This document shows, piece by piece, positions 25,191 to 31,746 of a stretch of 48,359 bases of DNA. The notes under the pieces are model-generated. The model was not told where the DNA came from. It was given only the letters and a program-made list of their open reading frames with translations, and ran no database searches. This stretch comes from a bacterium (GTDB taxonomy: Archaea; Nanobdellota; Nanobdellia; SCGC-AAA011-G17; GW2011-AR17): NCBI GenBank assembly GCA_030697685.1, contig JAUYPF010000038.1:1-48359 (forward strand), read 5' to 3'. A program made the position numbers and the translations under genes. Within the stretch, counting starts at the first letter, position 1, and each line of letters begins with the position of its first letter.

Positions 25191-25490
25191 TTATTCTTTT
25201 TGTGCTTTTACAATAGGCTTGTATGGATCATAGAAAACATAGACTTCTTGGCCGCCTTCACTTCTAAATTTAGATGGAAGTTTTGTTGCATCTATTCCTT
25301 GTTTTAGATATACATGAAGACATAGATCCTCTAGACTTTCATCTTCTTGAAAGACAAATCCTGAAGGAAAGAATCCTAGTTCATTTATTCTTGCCATTGT
25401 TTCTAATGCTGCACCAACAAAACCTTCTAGTCTTTTTTCAATAGAAAATTCTAATAAGAGTTCTTTTAATTCTGGTTTTTGGTATTTCAT
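25191..25490 (-). CDS. Hypothetical protein, 99 aa
   Basis: I do not recognise this soluble protein. It has a helical N-terminal half (ELKELLLEFSIEKRLEGFVGAALETMARINELG) followed by a beta-rich C-terminal half (HVYLKQGIDATKLPSKF, EVYVFYDPY). No catalytic motif is visible. It lies alone between the phosphatase and the VapC-like gene, on the same strand. Confidence 0.6.
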   Translation of the reverse strand: MKYQKPELKELLLEFSIEKRLEGFVGAALETMARINELGFFPSGFVFQEDESLEDLCLHVYLKQGIDATKLPSKFRSEGGQEVYVFYDPYKPIVKAQKE

Positions 25491-25582: not shown

Positions 25583-25948
25583 CTATTTCTTTACAAATTC
25601 TACATTTTCTAAGTTTCTAAAGCCCTCATCACCAGTGAGAAATTTTACTCCACATCTTTTTGCAACAACATACCCTATCACATCTGGTAAGGAAAGTTCT
25701 TTGTATTTTCTTTTTAAATTACTTGCTTCTTTTAGGTCTTCTATTTTTACTTCTACAAGAAAATGTTTGTATTTCTCTATAAAATTATCTGCTACTTTTG
25801 AGTCTATCTCTTTTTTTAAACCATAACTTAATTCTGCAAGATTAAAAATGGTTGTCATTGCTTCGGCTTCTTTATATTTACTATATTTTGGATTCCCATA
25901 AATAATTTCGAAGAATGCATAAGTATCAAAGAAATAGGTTTCAGTCAT
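25583..25948 (-). CDS. vapC: PIN-domain toxin, VapC-like
   Basis: 121 residues. The PIN acidic quartet is visible: the first Asp in FFDTYAFFE, Glu in NLAELSYG, Asp in SLPDVIGYVVAKR and the last Asp in FLTGDEGF. VapC toxins are magnesium-dependent ribonucleases that cut tRNA or rRNA until bound by their antitoxin. The start codon lies inside the end of the antitoxin frame, the usual VapBC arrangement. The antitoxin frame carries an in-frame stop, so how this toxin is controlled here is unclear. Confidence 0.88.
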   Translation of the reverse strand: MTETYFFDTYAFFEIIYGNPKYSKYKEAEAMTTIFNLAELSYGLKKEIDSKVADNFIEKYKHFLVEVKIEDLKEASNLKRKYKELSLPDVIGYVVAKRCGVKFLTGDEGFRNLENVEFVKK

Positions 25949-26162: not shown

Positions 26163-26246
26163 AAGTTATATTAGTATAATTATCTATATAAGGGTTTGCT
26201 TTTTCAAATAGTAGACCTTAAAAAGTTCAGTTCTGTCCTTTTTTCT

Positions 26247-27488
26247 ATGAAAAAAGATTGCCATAGTTGTCATGGAAAATGGTATGCTCAGCAATTGAAC
26301 TGTGGGCATAGTTTTTGTCCTATTTACACCAAACTTCCTCAATTGAAAACAGTACGTTTAGATAAAGAAAATTTTCAAGGAACTGCTCCGAGTGTTTTTG
26401 TTGGTAGATATGGATATCCTAATTTGAATGTTGGTATACTTGCTCCACCAGAAAAGATTGAAAAGGATGGTGAATTGTATGACTCTCCAAAAGAATGGAG
26501 TAAAAGAGGATTTCAAATACAGGATGTTTTGGATTTTCGTTCTGTGTTGATTAATTCGCGAACACAAGTATCTGTGAAGCAGCCACACAAATATGTAGAA
26601 ATTACTCAGGAAGTTGCGATGGCTTCGAAGCCTGTGGATGTTGAATTCTTTTTACAGAAAAAACCAGTGTATCAAATAAAAACTTCTAATGTAGAGACTG
26701 TGATTGGAGCGCATGCAGAGTTGAAGAAGGCTGTATTGGTTAGTAATCCAAAAATTAATCAACATGTTGAGAAAGCTTTTTCTGATACTGATTTGAAAGC
26801 TACGGAGGCTTTGAATATTTTGTATAAGAAAGGAATTGATGAAACTGCGTTGACACGCATTCTTTCTGTAGGAAGTTTAGGAGTGAAAATGCAGAGGAAG
26901 CTTGTGCCGACACGATGGGCTATAACAAGCGTTGATGATATTCTGGGAAAATATTTGGTAGAAGAAATAAAAGACTACAAAGAAACAGATTATCAGATGT
27001 TTTTTGGTGGGTATTTAGGAAATTATTATTTGATACTTTTCTTTCCATGGGTGTGGAGTTATGAACTATTTGAAATGTATATGCCTTCTACACTTTTGAA
27101 TCCTGAAAAAGAATTAAAATTTAGTACTGATCATGAGTTTTATGATGGAAGAAAGAATTATGCTGAACATTGTGTGGGGGGCTATTATGCTTGTCGTATG
27201 GGGATATTAGAAAAATTACAAAGTATGAAGAGACAGGGAACTGTGTTGGTATTACGATTTATTACAGATGAGTATACTACTCCGTTAGGTGTTTTTGTTT
27301 GTAGAGAAGCAACGAGAAAAGCTTTAGAAAATGGGAGAGAGTTTGCTTCTGAAGAAGAGATGATGAGATATGTGAAAGATTTTGTTCTTACTCGCTTCCA
27401 TTTTGATGTTGATAGTATTTTTAAGAAAAGTAAAGTTTTAGAACATATACATTCTCAAAAGACTTTGTTTGATTATGGTTCTAAGTAA
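26247..27488 (+). CDS. nreA: NreA-like DNA repair protein with PCNA-binding C-terminus
   Basis: 413 residues from the ATG at 26247; the track start lies upstream of the CTTAAAAAG box. The N-terminus has a zinc-binding pattern, CHSCHGKWYAQQLNCGHSFC. Core segments APSVFVGRYGYPNLNVGILAPP and the C-terminal QKTLFDYG, a PCNA-interacting (PIP) motif, match archaeal Nre proteins. Those proteins are implicated in DNA damage repair through PCNA. The sequence gives the family but not the enzymatic step. It is divergent from the VapBC-like pair. Confidence 0.9.
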   Translation: MKKDCHSCHGKWYAQQLNCGHSFCPIYTKLPQLKTVRLDKENFQGTAPSVFVGRYGYPNLNVGILAPPEKIEKDGELYDSPKEWSKRGFQIQDVLDFRSVLINSRTQVSVKQPHKYVEITQEVAMASKPVDVEFFLQKKPVYQIKTSNVETVIGAHAELKKAVLVSNPKINQHVEKAFSDTDLKATEALNILYKKGIDETALTRILSVGSLGVKMQRKLVPTRWAITSVDDILGKYLVEEIKDYKETDYQMFFGGYLGNYYLILFFPWVWSYELFEMYMPSTLLNPEKELKFSTDHEFYDGRKNYAEHCVGGYYACRMGILEKLQSMKRQGTVLVLRFITDEYTTPLGVFVCREATRKALENGREFASEEEMMRYVKDFVLTRFHFDVDSIFKKSKVLEHIHSQKTLFDYGSK

Positions 27489-27540
27489 TCCCTAAAAATG
27501 AAATTCTCTTTTTCAAAAATATCGTAGAAATATTAAAGGT

Positions 27541-27630
27541 TTAGAGGGGGCAGCTTGTGGCTGCCACCAATAAACACAGGGAGGGATTGCCTTAATGAAC
27601 TACTCTTAGGGAGTAATTAGTTATTTATAA
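27541..27630 (+). ncRNA. Candidate small structured RNA or leader
   Basis: The gap between NreA and the HTH gene has GC-richer sequence than its surroundings. One hairpin is GGCAGC-TTGTG-GCTGCC and another TACTC-TTAGG-GAGTA. A TATA-like AATATTAAAGG lies about 20 bases before the first. No ORF of note is present. I cannot assign an RNA family. It could also be the end of a lost mobile element beside the duplicated HTH genes. Confidence 0.35.
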
Positions 27631-27695
27631 AGGTTTTGTTTTGTAGTTACTTTGAAGTGGAAATATTTATAAATAAATCCTTTTATTGGATGAAT

Positions 27696-28940
27696 ATGCC
27701 TGGGTTCAAGCGAAGTTTAGATTATAGAAAATATGTTTATGATCTGTATCTTCATTTAAAAGATGATCCTTCTCTTTTAGAGTCTTCTCCACCCCCTTTG
27801 CAAAGAGAACTTTACTTGCTTCAGGATATTACTAAAAATGATCTCTCTTTAAGTGACTTAGAAAAAAAATATTTATTGAAAAGAGAAGTTATTTCTAGCT
27901 GGGCTAGATATCTTCAATCGAAAGGTATTTCTTTTGAGATGCCTTTTGTAAGAAAACATTATCTTTCTGCTGATCTTGAACAAGAAGCACTTGCATATCT
28001 TCAAGATCCAACAATCAGTGTTAAAGAAATTGCAGACACTCTTTCTTGTTCTTATACAACTCTCCATAGGCTTTATCATGCCCATGCAGATATGCTGCCT
28101 GAAAGAAAATCAAGAAGCTTTTCTTCTTCTCCTCCTGAAATTAAGGGAAAAAAAAACAATTTACGTGATGAGGCTATCCTTGAGGATGCAGAAACTTCTC
28201 GTTTTACTCTTAATGAAATGGGACAGAAAGATGGAAGAAATCTTAGTAAGCAAAGAGTAAGCCAGATTCTTCAAAGATATTACTTTGAGGATTATAGAAA
28301 AAGAAGAAGTACGTATAAAAGAGCTTTGAATATGGAATATAAGAATCTTCTTGATGTTCTTCAACAACATTATTTTGATAGGCTCATTGAAGAGAATGGT
28401 TTGAATCATGCTCTTGCATGGAGGTGCAAAGAAGTGTATGGTTGGGGTAAAAAATATTCTTTGGAGACTTTGGAAAAGCTTATTGCTGCGCGACGAGCTG
28501 GAGAGGGATATTATCGCTGTGTCAAACTTGGTGGTATAGCAGAAACTCAGAAGGAGAGTATGAAAAATGTCTCTCCCGTAGCTAGGATTTTGGATAGAGC
28601 CCTTTGTGATATTGTTTTAGATATTCATCAAAGAAATTTTGCTGAGGGAAGAAGTCTTAGTTCTGAAGAGGAAGAAAGGCTTAAAAAAATGTGGAATACA
28701 GGGGTATCTCCTACTGAGATTCAAGAAACTCTAGGATTAGTAAGCCCTGCTTCATATTATGCTCGAAAGTTTGGCTTGGGAAAAAGGCATTCTTCTATTA
28801 ATTATTCTCTTTTAGATACATTAATCTCTGAGGGGAAAAAATCTAAGGAAATGGCTGAGTTTGGTTTTTCTGGGCGTACTATTCAACGAAGAAAAAGAAA
28901 ACTCCGTTTGACAAAGGAGAAAAATGGATCCTGCACATAA
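27696..28940 (+). CDS. Multi-helix-turn-helix protein, copy A (414 aa)
   Basis: The ATG at 27696 lies about 25 bases after ATTTATAAAT; the ATG two codons earlier (27690) is also possible. The protein is a chain of HTH-like modules: LSDLEKKYLLKREVISSWARYL, ISVKEIADTLSCSYTTLHRLY, SKQRVSQILQRYYF, VSPTEIQETLGLVSPASYYAR and SKEMAEFGFSGRTIQRRKRK. There is no catalytic domain. From its middle onward it matches copy B over a 446-base direct repeat. It is probably a nucleic-acid-binding protein; its function is unknown. It overlaps the start of copy B by 17 bases. Confidence 0.7.
   Translation: MPGFKRSLDYRKYVYDLYLHLKDDPSLLESSPPPLQRELYLLQDITKNDLSLSDLEKKYLLKREVISSWARYLQSKGISFEMPFVRKHYLSADLEQEALAYLQDPTISVKEIADTLSCSYTTLHRLYHAHADMLPERKSRSFSSSPPEIKGKKNNLRDEAILEDAETSRFTLNEMGQKDGRNLSKQRVSQILQRYYFEDYRKRRSTYKRALNMEYKNLLDVLQQHYFDRLIEENGLNHALAWRCKEVYGWGKKYSLETLEKLIAARRAGEGYYRCVKLGGIAETQKESMKNVSPVARILDRALCDIVLDIHQRNFAEGRSLSSEEEERLKKMWNTGVSPTEIQETLGLVSPASYYARKFGLGKRHSSINYSLLDTLISEGKKSKEMAEFGFSGRTIQRRKRKLRLTKEKNGSCT
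28341..28786 (+). repeat. 446-bp direct repeat, left copy
   Basis: This stretch matches 29128-29573 at a constant offset of 787 bases with no insertions or deletions. Most of the differences are single substitutions, many silent, with one more diverged stretch in the middle. The repeat lies inside the two HTH genes and indicates recent tandem duplication. Confidence 0.9.
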
Positions 28941-29733
28941 ATATACTCATAGGAATAGAAAAATTCTTGAAGATGCTCTTCAGGGTGCCACTTTTTTACA
29001 TATTGCCAATACAAATAATCTTACCCCTGAAAGAATACGCCAAATTGTAGGAAAATATAGTGGTTTTACTGGAAGAGATTTACAAACTGCGAGAAAAGAG
29101 TATGATAAAGCTCTTCATCAGAATTATAAGAATCTTCTTGATGTTCTTCAACAACATTATTTTGATAAGCTCATTGAAGAGAATGGTTTAGATCATGCTC
29201 TTGCGTGGAGGTGCAAAGAAGTGTATGGTTGGGGTAAAAAATATTCTTTGGAGACTTTGGAAAAGCTTATTGCTGCGCGACGAGCTGGAGAAGGATATTA
29301 TCGTTGTGTTAAACTTGCTGGCATAGCAGAGACTCTGAAAGAGACAAGGATTAGAACTCCTCACGCAGCTGGGATTTTGAAAATGGCACTTTGCGATGTT
29401 GTTTTAGATATTCATCATAAAAATTTTGCTGAGGGAAAAAGCCTTAGTTATGAAGAAGAAGAAAGGCTTAAAAAAATGTGGAATGCAGGGGTATCTCCTA
29501 CTGAGATTCAAGAAACTCTAGGATTAGTAAGCCCTGCTTCATATTATGCTCGAAAGTTTGGCTTGGGAAAAAGAAAAGCTACAACTGCTTCGGAAATTCT
29601 TGTTGACCATTCTTATTTGGATAGACTTATTTCTGAAGGAAACACCTATTCAGAAATGAAGAGTTTAGGTTTTTCTGAGTATACTATTCGAAGAAGAAAA
29701 AAGGCACTTGGTGTTACAAGGTTGACTTCTTAA
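28924..29733 (+). CDS. Multi-helix-turn-helix protein, copy B (269 aa)
   Basis: The first 60 residues are unlike copy A and contain an HTH-like ATFLHIANTNNLTPERIRQIVG. The rest matches copy A closely (NLLDVLQQHYFDKLIEENGL, CKEVYGWGKKYSLETLEKLI, VSPTEIQETLGLVSPASYYAR). It ends with its own diverged C-terminal module, YLDRLISEGNTYSEMKSLGF. Immediately after the TAA the same frame continues into another copy of that module, so the present stop may be a truncation. Function is unknown. Confidence 0.68.
   Translation: MDPAHKYTHRNRKILEDALQGATFLHIANTNNLTPERIRQIVGKYSGFTGRDLQTARKEYDKALHQNYKNLLDVLQQHYFDKLIEENGLDHALAWRCKEVYGWGKKYSLETLEKLIAARRAGEGYYRCVKLAGIAETLKETRIRTPHAAGILKMALCDVVLDIHHKNFAEGKSLSYEEEERLKKMWNAGVSPTEIQETLGLVSPASYYARKFGLGKRKATTASEILVDHSYLDRLISEGNTYSEMKSLGFSEYTIRRRKKALGVTRLTS
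29128..29573 (+). repeat. 446-bp direct repeat, right copy
   Basis: Right-hand copy of the repeat at 28341-28786, with the same length and no gaps. The strongest identity is in the stretch encoding WGKKYSLETLEKLIAARRAG, which is unchanged at the protein level. Confidence 0.9.
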
Positions 29734-29853
29734 GGTACTATTAATTATTCTCTTTTAGATAAACTTATCTTTGAAGGAAAAACAAGAAAAGAAATAATCT
29801 ATGTAAGTTTTTCTTCTAGGACTATCACACGAAGAAAAAGAAAACTACACTAA
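29734..29853 (+). pseudogene. In-frame HTH module remnant after the stop of copy B
   Basis: Directly after the TAA of copy B, in the same frame, 39 codons read INYSLLDKLIFEGKTRKEII and SSRTITRRKRKLH before a second TAA. This matches the C-terminal module of copy A (INYSLLDTLISEGKKSKEMA, GRTIQRRKRKLR); the DNA aligns with 28795-28903 without gaps. There is no start codon. Its end overlaps the convergent aCPSF1 gene by nine bases. Confidence 0.75.
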
Positions 29854-31746
29854 TCTTATTGTATCTAAATTTCTTGGGACAGAAGTTTCCACGTGCATGA
29901 CTTTATGCACTGTTGAAGCAAGGTCTAAACATTTGGATGCCTCTCCATGCTGTGTAATCACTCGTTTTGGCTTTGGATCTAAATTTCTTAAGAAAGCCAT
30001 GAGCTGCGGACGAGAAGAGTGACCTGAGAATCCTTTGATGACTGCAATTTCAGCACGTACTTTCACTACTTCACTTCTACTTTCTCCAGAGGCAAAAGAA
30101 ATTTCTTTTTCTCCATTTTGTACACGACGACCTAGAGATCCTTCTGCTTGGTAGGAAGTTAAGATAACAATATTTTTTGGATTTTCTGAGAGAACTTTGA
30201 AGTATTCTACAGAGGCTCCACCAGTGAGCATACCAGAAGTTGCAATAATAATGCTTGAGCCTTCAGAGTGCATAACTTCTTGCATTTCTTTTTGTGAGCC
30301 TACACGTTTGAAAATATCAGAGAGGAATGGATTTTTTTCTTCAAAGAAGATTTGTTTTCTCACTATTGGATTGAAAAATTCTGGATATGTTGTATGAATT
30401 GCAGTGACGTCCCATACAAGGCCTTGTACATGAATAGGAATCTTTGGGAGTGTTCCTTCACGAACAGCGCGCTCGACCATAAGCATAATTTCTTGAGAAC
30501 GACCAACACCTAATACTGGAAGTAAAATCTTTCCACCTCTTTCAATAGTTTTTTTAATTAGATCCATAAAGAGATCTTCAGATTCTTTTCTCGGAGGGAG
30601 AATATCATCTTTACTGCCATAGGTACTTTCAATGATGACTGTTTCTAGTCGTGGGAATTTTGTTATTGCCTTTGCTAATAAATTTGAAGTATCATATAAC
30701 ATGTCTCCTGTATAAAGTAAATTGTGTAAACCATTTCCAATATGCAAATGTGTCATTGCTGAACCCAGGATGTGGCCTGCATTGTAAAAAGTCATACGAA
30801 TATCTGGAGTAATATCAGTTACCTCCTCATAATTGATGCAGATGGTTTGCTTGACCATTTGTTTGACATCTGCAACATCAAAAGGAGGTTTTCGTGCATC
30901 TTTGAATCCAATAGAAATAAAATCTAAAGCTAAAAGAGACATAATATCTCGTGTTGGTTCTGTACAATAAATAGGACCGCTGTAGCCATATTTTACTAAT
31001 AAAGGAACCATGGCAGAATGATCAAGATGGGCATGCGATATGATAACAGCGTCGATTTCATTTATTCTAAATTCAGGACTATCAAAATGTGGATAGGCAA
31101 ATTCTTCTGGTGCTGCAGGATTTATTCCACAGTCAAGAACAATGCGAGATTCTGGCGTTTGAAGAAGGAAACAAGATCTACCAACTTGGCGTCCAGCACC
31201 TAAAACAGTAACACGAACCCATTCATTTTTTCTTCCACGAATCCAACCATTGTAGATTCTTTTTCCTACTTCATTCAAGAATTTTTTTCTTGAGTCGTTA
31301 TTTTCATAGAGTACTGCGCGAATATTTTCTGTGATCTTTGAACGAATAGAAGGCATTCTTCGAATAATTGGAACCCAGAGAGTTTTTTCTTTGATGATTT
31401 TAAGTAATTCTCCTGATATGCCTATAGCCACACCAGGTTTTTCTGTTTCAATAATAACTGTACTTCGTGGTGCATCAAAAATAATATTATCTACATTTGC
31501 TTCAGCTGGAATAGTTTCACGAATAATTTTTTCTGCCTGTTCTATATCTAAACTAATAGATGGATCTGGTCTAAGTTCTATTCTTTTTTTAAAATCTGAA
31601 ACAAGTTTTTTAATTTCTCCTCGATTATCTAAGAAGAATTCTTTGCTTTTTGTATACACAATAATATTTGCAGCTTCAAAGCTAGTATGACTAATTTCTG
31701 CATTTTTAGGTAATTTTGCTACTATTTCATTCAGTATATCTGCCAT
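29845..31746 (-). CDS. aCPSF1/FttA beta-CASP ribonuclease with KH domains
   Basis: 633 residues. The N-terminal 150 residues hold two KH-like RNA-binding domains. The metallo-beta-lactamase core shows RSCFLLQTPESRIVLDCGINP, HAHLDHSAMVPLL and YTGDMLYDTSNLL. The beta-CASP part has VIIESTYGSKD, ILLPVLGVGRSQEIML and IATSGMLTGG. The C-terminus has GFSGHSSR and ITQHGE. This is the nearly universal archaeal factor that cleaves 3' ends of transcripts and ends transcription. It starts 25 bases after the proteasome beta gene and may be co-transcribed with it. Confidence 0.97.
   Translation of the reverse strand: MADILNEIVAKLPKNAEISHTSFEAANIIVYTKSKEFFLDNRGEIKKLVSDFKKRIELRPDPSISLDIEQAEKIIRETIPAEANVDNIIFDAPRSTVIIETEKPGVAIGISGELLKIIKEKTLWVPIIRRMPSIRSKITENIRAVLYENNDSRKKFLNEVGKRIYNGWIRGRKNEWVRVTVLGAGRQVGRSCFLLQTPESRIVLDCGINPAAPEEFAYPHFDSPEFRINEIDAVIISHAHLDHSAMVPLLVKYGYSGPIYCTEPTRDIMSLLALDFISIGFKDARKPPFDVADVKQMVKQTICINYEEVTDITPDIRMTFYNAGHILGSAMTHLHIGNGLHNLLYTGDMLYDTSNLLAKAITKFPRLETVIIESTYGSKDDILPPRKESEDLFMDLIKKTIERGGKILLPVLGVGRSQEIMLMVERAVREGTLPKIPIHVQGLVWDVTAIHTTYPEFFNPIVRKQIFFEEKNPFLSDIFKRVGSQKEMQEVMHSEGSSIIIATSGMLTGGASVEYFKVLSENPKNIVILTSYQAEGSLGRRVQNGEKEISFASGESRSEVVKVRAEIAVIKGFSGHSSRPQLMAFLRNLDPKPKRVITQHGEASKCLDLASTVHKVMHVETSVPRNLDTIRLV

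Follow-up and report, generated by a model that had tools for sequence, protein, structure and literature searches.

Two adjacent archaeal genes, here called A and B, probably constitute an operon of basic proteins with multiple HTH units, derived from an older gene array at a fixed site. In our reading this pair was partly homogenised, exchanged its C-terminal tails and, in the case of B, was truncated by a stop codon. Both genes lie on the forward strand of the window (the whole 48,359-nucleotide stretch of DNA that was analyzed), with A at 27696-28940 (414 aa, pI 9.4; residues 1-205 form its head) and B at 28924-29733 (269 aa, pI 9.4). They are arranged head to tail between an Nre-family gene at 26196-27488 (Pfam Nre_N, 5e-82) and an antisense gene at 29845-31746 (-), which was named from its sequence as an aCPSF1/FttA-like ribonuclease with KH and metallo-beta-lactamase domains. 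aCPSF1/FttA is the archaeal transcription-termination ribonuclease (PMC7515710). The 17-nt overlap of A and B fits an operon, as do the 4-nt overlaps between neighboring array genes of a related genome, UBA10136, that is described below.

The true start of A is most likely the ATG at 27696, rather than a TTG at 27636, since only that ATG is retained in UBA10136 and a TATA-like box lies ~27 bp ahead of it. This box, TTTATAAATA, starts at ~27669 within the putative promoter of A (27657-27695, +), which is nearly identical in UBA10136, and the A transcript is probably leaderless, beginning at 27696. A palindrome-like stretch ahead of the box, ACTTTGAAGT, resembled an operator and was set aside; the pattern was found twice in 48 kb. 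Elsewhere in the window, a possible PIN-domain (VapC-like) toxin gene was noted by eye at 25583-25948 (-), with a small ORF alongside it at 25191-25490.

The search for relatives of A and B covered 103 genomes from the order, 371 from the phylum, GTDB contigs and IMG/VR. The HTH-array family was present in only three genomes: that of the window, Nanoarchaeota archaeon UBA10136 (G002), a member of the same genus whose aCPSF1 is 96% identical to the window's, and SI047_bin70 (G010), from another genus of the same taxonomic family. UBA10136 carries three array genes at the matching locus (genes 1 to 3, of 500, 267 and 270 aa), and SI047_bin70 carries a single gene of 288 aa that lies against the aCPSF1 end. 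The site of the array is constant in all three genomes, with a conserved RNA-like element on one side and the aCPSF1 gene on the other; in the window this element, equipped with its own TATA box, forms the upstream border of the array at 27535-27604 (-). Five more genomes of the genus (G001 and G003-G006) have no family gene between aCPSF1 and nre, and A and B are without an additional paralogue in their own 1.07-Mb genome. Weak matches in three further genomes (G298, G111 and G257) were rejected; they span only the HTH/sigma-4-like part, and the one in G257 falls in a sigma-factor-like reading frame. A match in G007 was likewise rejected, as it sits in an unrelated HTH regulator gene. A viral, phage or plasmid origin was also considered and discarded, with no relatives found in IMG/VR (pattern scan and tblastn), among INPHARED phages or among PLSDB plasmids.

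Several observations concern the two borders of the array in their own right. The RNA-like element is 70 nt long, shares the strand of aCPSF1 and lies downstream of it. A single copy is present in each of the seven genomes of the genus as well as in G010 and G012 (E of ~4e-11 or lower), with one weak match in G015 and none in the remaining genomes of the 103 in the order, and Rfam holds no family for it. Its hairpin, GGCAGC/GCTGCC in sequence, has become GGCACC/GGTGCC in G005. By eye this change is compensatory; RNAalifold counted no compensatory change on the alignment used. The aCPSF1 gene varies as well: in G003 (G003:C54:2235-5861) it contains an in-frame insert of ~536 codons within a single 1211-aa open frame, which is probably an intein, and G012 contains a second, diverged aCPSF1-like gene (L035, G012:C22:216-2096) whose product is 53% identical to the window's aCPSF1.

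An earlier note on this DNA had described A and B as tandem genes of HTH-like modules, lacking any catalytic domain and belonging to no family with such a chain that its author knew, and our structural model and library searches agree with each of these points. An AlphaFold2 model of A (single run, six sequences; mean pLDDT 72, pTM 0.31) predicts several trihelical HTH-like units in one chain, at residues 33-75, 92-129, 149-195, 256-302, 323-358 and 370-411, with linkers and one long helix connecting the six units. Unit pLDDT is mostly 70-85, and lower, about 50-68, for unit 5; given the pTM of 0.31, the relative arrangement of the units is not fixed by the model. Sequence libraries returned HTH matches of the transposase type near residue 100 of A, of the sigma-region-4-like type near residue 180 and of the Xre-like type at the C-terminus, all of them under curated cut-offs. 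No match to sigma region 2 was found in Pfam or NCBIfam, and searches of Pfam, NCBIfam and PHROGs for a DDE catalytic domain gave nothing beyond the HTH parts. Foldseek searches with the A model likewise gave no significant match, with sigma factors at best at E 0.1 and TM 0.1; the closest structural resemblances are to sigma factors, the Tc3 and Mos1 DNA-binding domains, Pax and AraC.

Two further candidates were examined and rejected. The best PDB sequence match, the 'CAP repeat' of 8vd6, owes its E of 5.5e-5 to a sum over five repeats (~5-7 bits each); it has the appearance of a consensus repeat, and only the general HTH pattern is common to it and the A/B family. As for a defense system, PADLOC gave only a 27-residue HTH match to mads_1 (E 0.0013).

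All family members are basic (pI 8.5-9.6), compatible with DNA binding. The dN/dS ratio of ~0.4 for the head of A (0.05 for aCPSF1) indicates that the genes are translated and constrained but fast-evolving. We infer that A and B most likely function as a pair of basic, modular, sequence-specific DNA-binding regulators. They would bind specific DNA through several successive HTH units, and their targets probably include their own leaderless promoter.

It is possible, but in our judgment unlikely, that A and B are instead leftovers of a mobile element, that is, transposase DNA-binding parts without a catalytic domain that are decaying or have been domesticated. The second HTH of A is best matched by transposase HTHs (ISL3 type, PF13542, residues 86-130, 5.5e-5; a phage transposase family, 2.7e-7), the A model resembles the Tc3 DNA-binding domain in fold (1u78; Z 5.5), and the family is patchily present, with empty sites. 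However, no DDE or other catalytic domain accompanies these units, there are no copies elsewhere in the genome, and no obvious terminal inverted repeats are present (no long ones at the array borders, short ends being possible). Purifying selection and an identical site in two genera also speak against such an origin.

We then turn to the 3' end of that array. Behind the stop codon of B (TAA, 29731-29733, +), the frame of B stays open for a further 39 codons before another TAA (29734-29853, +), reading GTINYSLLDKLIFEGKTRKEIIYVSFSSRTITRRKRKLH up to that stop. The earlier note had recognized here an in-frame copy of the C-terminal module of A, and this holds: the best matches of the cut-off module are the C-terminal module of A (64% protein identity) and the third module of UBA10136 gene 1 (62%). 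The cut-off module lacks the glycine of the GFS turn, which is present in all other NYS-type copies compared. The tail modules of UBA10136 gene 1 begin at residues 369, 415 and 459, and the modules in the frame of B begin at codons 227 and 273, so that the first spacing is 46 codons in both. The tail module of B corresponds to the first of the three in gene 1. The stop of B, codon 270, aligns with a CAA (Gln) codon in the linker of gene 1 and stands, as that codon does, three codons ahead of the next module. Based on this TAA/CAA alignment and the equal 46-codon spacing, the module behind the stop is most simply read as B's own last module, severed by one substitution. The tail of B would once have continued through one or more further HTH modules as far as the aCPSF1 boundary, until it was shortened by a linker stop codon that differs by one base from the Gln codon of the sister species.

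A less probable account holds that the module is the 3' remnant of a lost third gene, joined by a deletion behind B. The end of the module shares 9 nt with aCPSF1, precisely the overlap seen for UBA10136 gene 3, but the LH-stop ending common to both is imposed by the codons of aCPSF1 on the opposite strand. Moreover, UBA10136 gene 3 terminates in another kind of module, whereas the cut-off module has its matches among NYS-type tails and keeps the spacing and frame of gene 1. Expression of the module by readthrough of the stop, so that a longer B is made as a minor product, is very improbable: the frame is open and the module consensus largely preserved, but TAA is the commonest stop (11 of the 16 window genes checked), the GFS-turn glycine has been lost and no recognized readthrough signal is visible. 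The module might nonetheless be used in this way, or be intact in other strains. The earlier note had seen modules being both added and cut off in tandem; module number does indeed vary in the array (one, one plus one behind the stop, and three), so modules are truly gained or lost in tandem, although the three genomes do not set the direction of the change.

The two genes also share a gap-free repeat of 446 bp, as the earlier note had reported, with 406 of 446 positions identical (91%) between 28341-28786 and 29128-29573. The next-best ungapped match of this segment anywhere in the window is identical at 172 of 446 positions (39%), which rules out chance. The likeness extends over a middle tract at 28313-28786 (+) in A and 29100-29573 (+) in B (424/474), with a single dissimilar 15-bp patch at 28558-28572 (4/15), and falls to 29-32% in the flanks on both sides. 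An assembly artifact is unlikely, since the two copies are 9% divergent and the same type of array is found in an independent MAG from another species.

To relate these segments to the array of UBA10136, we carried out AU tests on a codon alignment of four sequences, namely A, B and UBA10136 genes 1 and 2. Head, middle and tail gave three different trees. In the head, A groups with gene 1 and B with gene 2, as old orthologues do (81% and 76% nucleotide identity, and 48% between A and B), with the alternatives at p-AU <1e-40. In the middle (148 codons), A groups with B and gene 1 with gene 2, with the alternatives at p-AU 0.016 and 0.041; the second half carries the strongest signal, and for the first half alone the alternatives (p-AU 0.09 and 0.24) are not rejected. 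Nucleotide identity in this tract is 89% between A and B, versus 81-84% with gene 1. In the tail, A groups with gene 2 and B with gene 1 (75% each, the latter pair reaching 81% on the module, and 69% between A and B), with the alternatives at p-AU 0.001. By this topology, HTH-like unit 6 in the tail of A (28787-28922, +) is of the gene-2 type and the HTH-like unit in the tail of B (29574-29730, +) is of the gene-1 type. The exchanges have their borders near residues 206 and 364 of A, in predicted linkers that separate HTH units.

Synonymous sites allow the middle tract to be set beside a background. In this tract, dS is 0.18 between A and B (fourfold-site identity 46/51) and 0.39 between A and its orthologue (30/39); for aCPSF1, it is 0.84 between the two species (147/249).

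Together, the three segment trees show that the A/B pair predates divergence from the sister species, that its middle was homogenised later, and that the C-terminal modules were swapped between genes 1 and 2 relative to the sister species, as seen with two informative species. The earlier note had proposed a recent duplication, and the head topology overturns this by placing the duplication before the species split. A recent tandem duplication in this lineage, followed by fast divergence of heads and tails, would account for the 91% identity across 446 bp and its sharp ends, but is highly unlikely, as the heads are just 48% identical in DNA and, for each head and each tail, a closer relative exists in another species. 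The recent events are, judging from these trees, homogenisation of the 446-bp middle and exchange of the tails.

A tandem array, occupying the fixed site from the RNA-like element to aCPSF1, was present before the species split. The middle of A and B was homogenised after the split; the conflict between trees documents the homogenisation itself, and gene conversion is, as the simplest account, its presumed mechanism. The C-terminal modules of genes 1 and 2 are exchanged when the two species are compared, and such a swap of tail modules would be expected to alter target specificity. A broader proposal, which we offer only tentatively and hold to be doubtful, is that this is a lineage-specific archaeal DNA-binding family in which specificity evolves by exchange of whole modules while gene conversion keeps the core uniform. 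If so, the array would be an archaeal analogue, on a small scale, of poly-zinc-finger arrays, located beside the gene of a global transcription-termination factor, in which tandem genes swap HTH units and vary the number of these units at linker boundaries. The family is a rare one, absent from the curated libraries searched, and the processes, module exchange and partial concerted evolution, are well supported here and familiar ones. The locus offers a clean, small example, from an uncultured archaeal lineage, of repeated-unit DNA-binding regulators being rebuilt in place. It also illustrates that a near-identical adjacent repeat is not necessarily a recent duplication.

Among known systems, sigma-70 region 4 (PF04545) is weakly matched in four of the six family members by the third HTH unit, at its ERIRQI stretch (best 7.4e-4). 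However, the A/B family stays under the gathering score (13.6 bits for B, versus a cut-off of 24.1) and lacks sigma regions 2 and 3, and the archaeal host, in contrast to the setting of sigma-70 region 4 proteins, has no sigma-dependent polymerase. Transposase HTHs, including HTH_Tnp_ISL3, IS630 and the bipartite domain of Tc3 and Mos1, resemble the adjoining HTH units of A, but A has no catalytic domain, scores below cut-off and has six units instead of two. Pax domains and tandem homeodomains also carry a chain of trihelical HTHs on a linker (Z ~5 for Pax5, Pax6 and tandem engrailed), although these Z values are within the range of common arrangements and A and B have no evident sequence relation to them. 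As in prokaryotic concerted evolution (PMC6053082), the middle of A and B is more alike within the genome than between orthologues, but homogenisation affects only part of the gene and the tails have been exchanged. Finally, with archaeal HTH units of ~45 residues, A and B differ from poly-zinc-finger and other modular DNA-binding arrays (PMC2604467), which they nevertheless resemble as tandem genes built from variable numbers of recombining modules.
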